The notes under the pieces are model-generated. The model did not search any database, was not told where the DNA came from, and saw nothing but the letters and a program-made list of their open reading frames with translations. DNA of 64,000 nt from Bacteroidota bacterium (GTDB lineage Bacteria > Bacteroidota > Bacteroidia > Bacteroidales > SKPS01), in NCBI GenBank assembly GCA_022709695.1, contig JAKLII010000009.1, positions 1 through 64,000 on the forward strand, in the 5' to 3' direction. The position numbers and the translations under genes were made by a program. Of the stretch, positions 28,635 through 31,189 are shown in pieces (the stretch's first letter is position 1; every line of letters begins with the position of its first letter).

Positions 28635-28680
28635 CGCTGTTTTTACGGATATGATTAACCCAATAACACAGAAAGATACC

Positions 28681-29256
28681 ATGAACAGAACCCTTGTGAT
28701 GATGCTTGCCGTTATTGCGGCCGCTCTTTTCGGATGCTCTTCCCGCACTCCCGACAGCACTTTTCAGGAAGTGGCCGGCAACGTACCGGGCACCCAGACA
28801 GAGCAGACTATAACAACCCCTCCCGATTCGGTGCCTGCTGCAGCAGAGGTAAAACCATCATCGGTTGCATTCAGCAACAAACCGGTGGAACTCACTACGG
28901 CTGCTTTTAAGGAAAAGGTATTCGACATGGACAAGAACCCTACCCAGTGGGTATACAAAGGTGGCTTACCGGCGATTGTTGATTTTTATGCCGTTTGGTG
29001 CGGCCCATGCAAGATGGCGGCCCCTGCCCTCGAGGAACTGGCAAGGGAATATGCCGGTAAGGTACACATTTTCAAGGTAGATGCCGAAAAAGAACGGTAT
29101 CTGTCGAGCTATTTCCAGGTAAGCGGTTACCCCACTTTTATGGTAATTCCTGCCAGCGGGCAGCCCAGGATCTTTACCGGGCTTCCGCAGGGTGTCCGTA
29201 CCCAGGCCGACATCAAACCGGCCTTTAAACAGATCATCGAAAACGAACTTTTATAA
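28681..29256 (+). CDS. thioredoxin-domain lipoprotein
   Basis: 191 aa from the ATG at 28681, which begins a lipoprotein signal with lipobox ALFGCSS (Cys19); the in-frame ATG 10 codons upstream would spoil it. A Pro/Thr-rich linker (about 20-65) leads to a complete thioredoxin domain with active site WCGPC (Cys107, Cys110) and the cis-Pro in VSGYPTFMV. It is probably a membrane-anchored periplasmic thiol-disulfide oxidoreductase. Its cytosolic partner gene trxA lies 27 bases downstream, suggesting that the pair acts on both sides of the membrane or arose by duplication. Confidence 0.9.
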   Translation: MNRTLVMMLAVIAAALFGCSSRTPDSTFQEVAGNVPGTQTEQTITTPPDSVPAAAEVKPSSVAFSNKPVELTTAAFKEKVFDMDKNPTQWVYKGGLPAIVDFYAVWCGPCKMAAPALEELAREYAGKVHIFKVDAEKERYLSSYFQVSGYPTFMVIPASGQPRIFTGLPQGVRTQADIKPAFKQIIENELL

Positions 29257-29283
29257 TCATTAAACACTAAAGAACAGCATATT

Positions 29284-29646
29284 ATGATTGAGCATCTGAC
29301 CAAAGAGACTTTTCTGGACAAAGTATTCAACTACGAACAGCACCAGGAATGGAAATTCGAAGGGGAACTCCCCTGTCTGATTGATTTTTACGCCGACTGG
29401 TGCCAGCCCTGCAAGATGGTTGCCCCCATTCTGGAAGAGCTTTCCAAAGAATACGAAGGAAAGATTAACATTTACAAGATTAACACGGAAGACCAGCAGG
29501 AACTGGCAGGTGCTTTTGGCATCCGCAGCATCCCGTCGTTATTGTTTGTTCCGATGGCAGGGCAGCCACAGATGGCCATGGGAGCCCTTCCGAAGAACAG
29601 CTTTAAGGAGGCGATCGATTCCATTCTTCTGGGTTCCCAAAACTAA
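29284..29646 (+). CDS. trxA: thioredoxin with WCQPC active site
   Basis: 120 aa cytosolic thioredoxin. The active site is WCQPC (Cys40, Cys43) in place of the usual WCGPC; cis-Pro in IRSIPSLLF. The Gly-to-Gln change at the first active-site spacer alters redox potential in other thioredoxins. It may supply electrons to the PrxQ-type peroxiredoxin at 12.0 kb. Second gene of the operon from the promoter at 28627. Confidence 0.9.
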   Translation: MIEHLTKETFLDKVFNYEQHQEWKFEGELPCLIDFYADWCQPCKMVAPILEELSKEYEGKINIYKINTEDQQELAGAFGIRSIPSLLFVPMAGQPQMAMGALPKNSFKEAIDSILLGSQN

Positions 29647-29676
29647 CCGAACACCAAAATTACAGGAGGGCATTAG

Positions 29677-30321
29677 ATGACCCTTTCTCCTGCTTTGTTT
29701 CCCCCGGTTGGATATATGGCCATCTGGCTTTTCCATCCGGGGGTTACTGTTGAGGCACATGAGCATTTTCAGAAGCAGACGTATCGAACACGCTATCAGA
29801 TTGCCGGGCCAAACGGGATGCAGATCTTGCAGGTTCCCGTAACCAAAGGTGGCGAACATCATTGCAAAACCACCGACACAAAGGTACTGTACCACGGTTC
29901 ATGGCCGGTGTTTCACCTCCGTTCACTGGATACGGCGTACAATAAGGCACCCTACTATCTTTTTTACAGGGATGCCATAGAACAGATCCTGAACCAACCT
30001 TTTCCGAACCTTTGGGAGTTGTGTAAAGCCTCCACTGAGTTATCTGGATCCCTTTGTGGTATCACCAAAGCGGTATTGCCCACCGGATCATTTGTCCCGG
30101 CAGAAAACCCGGAGCGGGACTACAGAAACCTGATCCATCCCAAGAAGCCCCTGCCATGGGAGGGTTTCGCAGATTTGCCCACCTATCACCAGGTTTTCAG
30201 CGACCGTTATCCTTTTCTGCCCGGCCTCAGTATTCTGGACCTGCTGTTTAATGCAGGGCCTGAAGCACAAACCTGGTTACAGGGGTATTACAGGAGTATT
30301 TCCGACACCCTTTCTGCATAA
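29677..30321 (+). CDS. WbqC-like family protein
   Basis: 214 aa. Starts LSPALFPPVGYMAIWLFHPG, then VEAHEHFQKQTYRTRYQIAG, typical of the WbqC-like family (PF08889). Members are found in polysaccharide clusters but their activity is not settled. No signal peptide, so cytosolic. It follows trxA by 30 bases and probably belongs to the same operon; the NlpC-like gene starts 73 bases later. Confidence 0.85.
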   Translation: MTLSPALFPPVGYMAIWLFHPGVTVEAHEHFQKQTYRTRYQIAGPNGMQILQVPVTKGGEHHCKTTDTKVLYHGSWPVFHLRSLDTAYNKAPYYLFYRDAIEQILNQPFPNLWELCKASTELSGSLCGITKAVLPTGSFVPAENPERDYRNLIHPKKPLPWEGFADLPTYHQVFSDRYPFLPGLSILDLLFNAGPEAQTWLQGYYRSISDTLSA

Positions 30322-30394
30322 TCATTCCCAAAACAGGGAATTTTACCCGTTTGCATTGATATTTTTTGTAGGTTTGACCAAACTTTTTGCCGCT

Positions 30395-31189
30395 ATGTTT
30401 GGTATCTGCAGTGTCCCCGTTGCTCCGGTATATGCCTCCCCGACAGACCGTTCTGCTATGGTAAGTCAGATTCTGGCGGGTGAGAAGATAGAAGTACTTG
30501 AACTTGAAGACCCCTGGATCATGGTTCTCAACCAGAATGACCATGTGCGGGGCTGGGTCGACCGTAAGATGTTTGAAGAACTCTTCGAAGGGGAGGACAA
30601 TGCTTTTGCCGGGAAGCCTACTGGGGTAATCAAACCACCGATGTACTGTGCGCGTGACCAATATGGCAGAAATTTCTACCTGCCGGGAGGATCAAGGCTT
30701 TACCAGCATGGGTCTTCCATTGCCGTGGCACCCGGTCGCAACCTGGAAGGGGATGTCAGGCAGCATATCTTTATGCCGGCTTACACCTCGGGAAAAGAGA
30801 TTGTAACAACTGCCCTGTTGTTTAATGGAGCCCCTTACCTGCGTGGAGGAAAAACCATCTTTGGAATGGATAATTCAGGCCTGATCCAGATTTCATGTTG
30901 CCTGAACGGCATCCGCATACCAAGAAGTCTTGAAGATCAGGTGGAAACAGGAACCGTGGTCAGCTTTAATGAAGAGGCCCAACCCGGTGATATCGCTTTT
31001 TTTGAAACGGCTGAAGGATCGATCATCCATGCAGGATTTGTGATGGATGGGGGAAGGATTGTGCATGCCTACGGAGAGGTGAGGGTTGATCTTTTCGATC
31101 ATGAAGGGATTTTCAACAAACACACCCGGCAATACACCCATAAACTCAGGGTGATCAAGCGAATCCATGAACCCCACGTGCATAACTGA
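30395..31189 (+). CDS. NlpC/P60-like protein with catalytic Cys replaced by Asn
   Basis: About 264 aa from the ATG at 30395 (MFGICSVPVAPVYASPTDRS); the ATG at 30251 lies inside the WbqC gene. Residues about 15-70: bacterial SH3 domain (MVSQILAGEKIEVLELEDPW ... RGWVDRKMF). About 140-264: NlpC/P60 domain. The nucleophile position, normally GMDCSGL, reads GMDNSGL (codon AAT, Asn160), while the His motifs HAGFV and IVHAYGEV are kept. The usual Bacteroidota homologues cleave gamma-D-Glu-diamino acid bonds in peptidoglycan; this one is probably inactive as a Cys hydrolase and may bind muropeptides. No signal peptide is evident. Confidence 0.85.
   Translation: MFGICSVPVAPVYASPTDRSAMVSQILAGEKIEVLELEDPWIMVLNQNDHVRGWVDRKMFEELFEGEDNAFAGKPTGVIKPPMYCARDQYGRNFYLPGGSRLYQHGSSIAVAPGRNLEGDVRQHIFMPAYTSGKEIVTTALLFNGAPYLRGGKTIFGMDNSGLIQISCCLNGIRIPRSLEDQVETGTVVSFNEEAQPGDIAFFETAEGSIIHAGFVMDGGRIVHAYGEVRVDLFDHEGIFNKHTRQYTHKLRVIKRIHEPHVHN

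Follow-up and report, generated by a model that had tools for sequence, protein, structure and literature searches.

Loss of the catalytic cysteine and of ligand-pocket residues in a YkfC-like NlpC/P60 protein from a Bacteroidales genome

The YkfC-type gamma-D-Glu-diamino acid endopeptidase BcYkfC has a catalytic triad of Cys238, His291, and His303 (PMC2954226). In that description, L-Ala and D-Glu are recognized through Tyr118, Trp228, Asp256, Ser257, Ser239, and Tyr226, where Trp228 lines both the S1 and S2 pockets and the contacts to gamma-D-Glu are made by Asp237, Ser239, Ser257, and Tyr226. The gamma-D-Glu-diaminopimelate (DAP) endopeptidases AvPCP and NpPCP are reported there to have nearly the same pocket. 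An inactive NlpC/P60 protein is also known, namely RipD (PMC6628586, PMC12067865), for which the triad positions are given as Ala83-Ser132-Glu144 (PMC12067865); read in this order, both the Cys and the His would be lost, the wording of the source being inconsistent. This study concerns a YkfC-like gene in which the catalytic Cys is replaced by Asn, located at 30395..31189 on the forward strand of a 64,000-nucleotide stretch of Bacteroidota DNA (order Bacteroidales; contig JAKLII010000009.1), hereafter the window. All features of the window described below lie on the same strand.

The open reading frame at 30395–31189 encodes 264 residues with no internal stop, counted from the Met to which its relatives align, and the product was classified as an SH3–NlpC/P60 protein, a Cys-less positional orthologue of the YkfC-like endopeptidases. 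The motif GMDNSGL occupies residues 157–163, and both the sequence and the alignment with the order confirmed what the original prediction had noticed, that Asn160 (codon AAT, 30872–30874) stands in place of the Cys. A change from TGT or TGC to AAT takes two or three substitutions, so a single miscalled base cannot yield Asn160. In Pfam searches, the protein matched NLPC_P60 (PF00877) at 49.9 bits against a cut-off of 23 over residues 145–243, which places it in the NlpC/P60 fold family, as well as SH3_16 (30.0 bits, cut-off 25.8) and SH3_3 (28.3 bits, cut-off 27). Together with a structural model, these matches delimit a first bacterial SH3 domain at residues 1–62 (30395..30580), a predicted middle beta-rich domain at residues 76–118 (30620..30748) that is SH3b2-like by position, and an NlpC/P60 domain at residues 133–257 (30791..31165), for which a structural match was also found. 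The reading frame is open 5' of Met1 up to an ATG at 30251, within the preceding gene, while the frame of the only sampled relative of the same genus starts just 12 codons before its Met (an open frame of 270 residues against 258 matched). The aligned Met is presumably the start, and the protein is presumably cytoplasmic. A hydrophobic stretch, recognized by eye, is encoded immediately before Met1 (30251-30394) and could reflect chance or an alternative start.

The first search covered 99 genomes, comprising that of the window itself, a second from its genus, and 97 others of the order, and homologues were matched in 84 of them at E<=0.001. The 68 genomes with a match at E of 1.5e-26 or better, the window included, were aligned, and the 16 with weaker, partial matches were excluded. 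Cys was found at the catalytic position in 67 of the 68 sequences, with Asn solely in the window. A larger order set of 170 sequences, again including the window, was composed of these 68, 18 further best hits among those listed for a scan of 393 order genomes, four sequences from a pattern scan described below, and 80 fetched afterwards. Cys160 was present in 165 of the 170, and the remaining five do not represent a frequency because the loci L108, L117, and L118 entered solely through the pattern scan. At E<=1e-30, the family was detected in 259 of 393 genomes of the order.

In the alignment, Cys238, His291, and His303 of YkfC correspond to residues 160, 212, and 224 of the window protein, and Asp256, Trp228, Asp237, Ser239, Ser257, and Tyr226 to residues 178, 150, 159, 161, 179, and 148, respectively. 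Tyr118 probably corresponds to residue 51, as suggested by its place before the GW motif of the SH3 domain. These positions are highly conserved in the order set: Tyr51 occurs in 163 of the 170 sequences, Tyr148 and Trp150 in 167 each, Ser161 in 166, Asp178 in 160, and Ala, Ser, or Thr at position 179 in 165, while Asp159, Arg177, His212, and His224 are each invariant (170/170). The window departs from the consensus at pocket positions 51, 150, 160, 178, and 179. Besides Asn160, it carries Val51 instead of the Tyr (30545..30547), Arg150 instead of the Trp (30842..30844), and Ser178–Leu179 instead of Asp followed by Ala, Ser, or Thr (30926..30931). The His pair of an active C40 cysteine peptidase is present, with His212 (31028..31030) in the motif IIHAG and His224 (31064..31066) in IVHAYG, while Asn160 occupies the helix N-terminus in place of the Cys. 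Likewise, the Asp256 and SH3 Tyr118 that mark the YkfC-like subfamily in PMC2954226 are replaced by Ser178 and, by the probable correspondence above, Val51.

The only sampled congener (genome G001, locus L005) is 53% identical to the window protein. It departs from the consensus at positions 51, 148, 150, 161, 178, and 179, with Pro at 150 and Gly–Ile at 178–179, and retains Cys at 160. Among the sampled members of the genus, Asn160 is therefore not fixed, which answers a check proposed in the original prediction. The same prediction had taken Cys in all close relatives as a sign of sequencing error or recent loss. Such relatives are, literally, what was found, as represented by one congener, but the conclusion attached to them does not follow: the congener's own pocket is dismantled and the loss of the Cys recurs elsewhere, so its Cys is no sign that Asn160 is erroneous or that an ordinary enzyme has only recently been inactivated.

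AlphaFold2 was run on the window protein together with six relatives. The model of the window protein (predicted local distance difference test, 81.4; predicted template modelling score, 0.79) has a helix at residues 160–170 that starts at Asn160. When the Foldseek list was realigned with VIA-align, the top match was BcYkfC (3h41; Z 22.0, root-mean-square deviation 3.2, 243 aligned residues), followed by Bacteroides dipeptidyl-peptidase VI (DPP VI) structures (Z 20.6–20.8), while the RipD structures ranked lower (Z 13.4 and 13.1); Foldseek by itself placed 3pvq first (E 5.3e-16). The predicted fold and the order-wide orthologues are of the YkfC/DPP VI type, and the combined SH3b and NlpC/P60 architecture agrees with it. 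The RipD model NF033743 of NCBIfam scored 30.1 bits against a cut-off of 215, and no NCBIfam model exceeded its cut-off in a scan of four proteins. A comparison of the middle domain with solved structures by sequence gave nothing meaningful (best E 0.39). The alignment, model, and conservation support the earlier view that the fold and the SH3 and His motifs were kept while the nucleophile was lost.

The loss is not confined to the window. The 393 order genomes were scanned with a DNA pattern of the motif in which the catalytic codon does not begin with T, and 20 places matched, five of which are family members: the window (Asn), L108 (Gly), L110 (Gly), L117 (Ser), and L118 (Ala). The other 15 were rejected, as they had no tblastn match to seven members at E<=1e-4. 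Among 247 genomes of the class, eight of them from the order, the pattern matched 19 places, with five new family members: L234 (Gly), L235 (Ser), L236 and L237 (both Ala), and L238 (Ser). The Cys version of the pattern recovers 65 of 67 known Cys-type genes, and the ten Cys-less members constitute a lower bound because any member without the flanking GG, K/R, D, G, or Q escapes it. A second pattern covered the non-Cys codons that begin with T, apart from Trp. It was run on the 393 order genomes only and yielded two places, L122, which had no match at E<=1, and L123, with a best E of 0.07; neither was counted.

None of the ten Cys-less frames contains a stop. His212, His224, Arg177, and Gln182 are kept in all ten independently of the pattern, while the presence of Asp159 and Gln165 depends on how the pattern was built. 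Asp178 is lost in nine (L234 retains it) and Tyr51 in eight (L110 and L234 retain it); residue 179 is other than Ala, Ser, or Thr in seven, Tyr148 is lost in five, and Trp150 in three. No compensating Cys common to the Cys-less members was found at the tabulated positions. Within the order set, Asp178 is lost in all five Cys-less rows versus five of the 165 Cys-bearing rows (Fisher 2e-7, for rows that are non-independent and Cys-less members that are partly pattern-selected). Of these five Cys-bearing rows, four have Asn and the fifth is the congener. Asn178 was observed in the Cys-bearing L062, L168, L186, and L197, and Ser or Phe at position 51 in the Cys-bearing L190 and L197, which are perhaps intermediate stages of pocket loss. 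Additionally, residue 226, a Ser in most relatives, is Tyr in the Cys-less L004, L110, and L118 and Phe or His in L234-L238, and may represent a parallel change adjoining His224.

In a 90-row order tree built without the pocket columns, with a bootstrap that had not settled, at least four losses were needed for the five Cys-less order rows. These rows paired as L110 with L014 (100/100), L108 with L030 (100/99), the window with L005 (100/100), and L117 with L118 (98/81). Forcing them together cost 284 log units, and a single origin as one dead clade was rejected for the five order members by the approximately unbiased (AU) test (p-AU 6.7e-6), where the constrained group was defined by the residue, though the tree was already known beforehand. 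A rougher 175-row tree with all ten Cys-less members gave at least six losses; the exact number is uncertain, as the support was 30 for L117–L118 and 47 for L238 with L236/L237, and the class members were included without Cys-bearing relatives from their own families. Branch lengths, in changes per column, were about 1.6 for the window plus its stem, 1.15 for L117, and 1.27 for L118.

The genus pair provided a view of the remaining constraint. The proportions of nonsynonymous (pN) and synonymous (pS) differences between the window gene and its congener were 0.31 and 0.82, the latter being saturated. Their 53% identity is ordinary for this genome pair because the neighboring genes span 41–66% (wbqC 41%, aroE 47%, VCA0040-like 58%, and, both named by eye, TPR-like 59% and phosphosulfolactate-synthase-like 66%). 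At the 34 positions conserved in at least 97% of 164 Cys-bearing relatives (congener excluded), the window protein keeps 28 and departs at six (13, 21, 51, 150, 160, and 178). The two proteins are 70% identical over residues 76–118, 53% over the flanks (residues 1–62 plus 133–257), and 67% over residues 191–257. When the 164 Cys-bearing sequences were compared in 13,366 pairs, the middle domain was at least as similar as the flanks in three, each with a flank identity over 80%. The middle averaged 19.7%, with a maximum of 52.1%, in the 5,825 pairs whose flanks were 50–60% identical. By these alignments, the middle domain, variable elsewhere, is unusually conserved in the window's genus, as represented by one species pair.

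The protein is probably a dead muropeptide peptidase whose fold was kept. The reading favored here, at a probability of roughly 0.57, is that the protein still folds and, having given up catalysis, now serves as a binding or scaffold protein for a new ligand, being derived from a YkfC-like peptidase that lost its pocket and then its Cys. This reading draws on the position of the gene, the loss of the Cys and pocket residues, the intact frame, the signs that selection maintains the gene (28 of the 34 conserved positions, pN below pS, and an identity ordinary for the genome pair), the kept His pair, the predicted fold, the shifted constraint in the one pair, and the parallel losses elsewhere. 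In the simplest order of events, the pocket would have been lost before the two lineages of the genus acquired their present states at position 160, the nucleophilic Cys afterwards changing to Asn in the window's lineage. Contact with a partner would most likely be made via the middle domain, now the best conserved part, and the former active-site cleft with its two retained His perhaps joins this contact.

Several observations weigh against such a role. Retention of the His could be structural, and the open upstream frame and hydrophobic stretch may signify a longer, exported or membrane-bound form. The middle-domain signal comes from one pair, the two sampled species of the genus, and a test of middle versus flanks within that pair alone gives p = 0.06; moreover, relaxed constraint on the flanks may account for their apparent divergence and would exaggerate the contrast. 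Other comparisons involving Cys-less members gave middle and flank identities of 21 and 43% (L117–L118), 39 and 53% (L108–L030), and 64 and 74% (L110–L014). As the pattern is not seen in these lineages, any new role may differ between lineages. More tentatively, and possible rather than probable, the YkfC-like proteins of these bacteria could have a second, non-catalytic role that needs the fold and His pair and not the Cys. Lineages in which the peptidase role was dispensable would have lost the Cys and the amine-binding Asp and Tyr in parallel, and what is left would act on its own as a sensor or scaffold. In the genus of the window, this role would have moved to, or gained, a new interface in the middle domain.

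The piecemeal disappearance of pocket residues would also fit slow decay, the main rival reading, in which the enzyme is unneeded and its pocket and Cys drift while the gene is still present. The gene may be dispensable, as 134 of the 393 order genomes had no match at E<=1e-30, and redundancy could relax it in the four other Cys-less order genomes, which have a second NlpC/P60 gene. In G125, G232, and G374, this gene encodes 412–465 residues and lies about 1 kb or less from an MR_MLE-family match, and in G270 it encodes 296 residues. However, a second gene is also carried by the Cys-bearing congeners G008 (418 residues, beside an MR_MLE-family match) and G076 (296 residues), and none of such kind was found in the window's genus, where G001 is 86% complete. 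Decay is rendered rather unlikely by the ten stop-free frames with invariant His212, His224, Arg177, and Gln182, by the 70% and 67% identities of the middle domain and residues 191–257 within the genus, and by the long branches of several Cys-less lineages. The original prediction suggested a muropeptide-binding pseudoenzyme. A parallel would be RipD, whose inactive NlpC/P60 domain binds peptidoglycan (PMC12067865; inactivity also in PMC6628586). Asp159 and Arg177 of the pocket network are indeed retained, but the counterparts of Tyr118, Trp228, Asp256, and Ser257, which recognize L-Ala-γ-D-Glu in YkfC (PMC2954226), are gone in both sampled members of the genus, and those of Ser239 and Tyr226 are replaced too in the congener. 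Muropeptide binding is therefore poorly supported and appears improbable.

Every Cys-less member found retains both His, and Ser occupies the Cys position in three of the ten. These features would be compatible with an enzyme that has another nucleophile or reaction, using Cys168/169 or Asn160 or a water that the two His hold in place. The remaining seven carry Asn, Gly, or Ala, none a like nucleophile, and no replacement Cys is shared at the tabulated positions. The nearby Cys168–Cys169 (30896..30901; motif ISCCLNG), once suggested as substitutes, lie 8–9 residues down the predicted helix from Asn160, or about 12 Å as estimated from helix rise; in the congener residue 169 is Gln, and Cys168 is shared by the congener and L030, both of which have the catalytic Cys. 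Continued catalysis of this kind is accordingly given very little weight. Even more remote is the possibility that the Asn codon arose through an error in sequencing or assembly, or that one strain carries a null allele of very recent origin: the window is the only sampled sequence of its species and the congener has the Cys, but the codon would have to differ by at least two bases, most pocket changes coincide in position with those of the congener, and the frame is intact.

Upstream of the gene, the window encodes two thioredoxin-domain proteins (28651..29256 and 29284..29646) and, immediately before it, a WbqC-like protein (29677..30321), all identified by Pfam. A WbqC-like gene likewise precedes the copies in L072, which appears to belong to the congener, and in L014 and L110. 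The order thioredoxin, thioredoxin, WbqC, NlpC/P60 gene is common to the window and L014, a Cys-bearing locus of another family whose outer thioredoxin is truncated at the end of the locus and recognized by eye only, and supports orthology by position. The conserved block before the gene spans 28651-30321 in the window. In L009, L011, L030, L073, L074, L108, and L117, the NlpC/P60 gene adjoins a 7TM-HD phosphohydrolase gene, assigned by Pfam in L030 and by a similar start sequence in the others. Elsewhere in the window's genome, a 206-residue NlpC/P60 protein with DCSG was found, and the congener has a 228-residue frame. An RHS-like protein (by eye) at the end of contig C17 (L003, 1240-2220), cut by the contig end, weakly matches NlpC/P60 close to its C-terminus and has the look of a polymorphic-toxin arrangement.

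The second NlpC/P60 genes of 412–465 residues are presumably DPP VI, and their neighbors dipeptide epimerases. A link between loss of the Cys and loss of the epimerase was rejected, as MR_MLE_C (PF13378) matches in 20 genomes showed no correlation: strong matches occurred in the Cys-less G125, G270, G232, and G374, while none were found in the Cys-bearing G013, G053, and G047 and only weak ones in G025, G065, and G070. The window's genome had one weak match, in a frame of about 430 residues taken for enolase, and the congener none.

A recycling-type enzyme has repeatedly lost its Cys and ligand pocket while the His pair and fold stayed. These parallel losses represent natural separation-of-function mutants that would serve as a probe for a possible non-cutting role of the Cys-bearing homologues, and they could reveal what peptidoglycan recycling is coupled to in such bacteria. 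None of the titles listed in searches of an open-access library concerned Cys-less YkfC-like proteins. Among characterized proteins, the window protein is most like YkfC and DPP VI (BcYkfC 3h41; BT_1314 3pvq/4r0k; BACOVA_00612 3npf), whose fold covers almost the entire model (Z 20.6–22.0) and whose His pair, Asp237, and Arg255 it shares, while it differs in having Asn for Cys238 and replacements of Trp228, Asp256, Ser257, and, as matched above, Tyr118. AvPCP and NpPCP (2hbw/2evr; Z 14.4 and 14.3) resemble it in combining SH3b with NlpC/P60, but they have one SH3b domain. RipD (Rv1566c, 4jxb/4lj1) shares an NlpC/P60 domain without the Cys. The solved part of RipD is not known to contain an SH3 domain. 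A dead NlpC/P60 protein is already known, but RipD is described as still peptidoglycan-binding, whereas in the window protein both His remain and the muropeptide pocket is lost.
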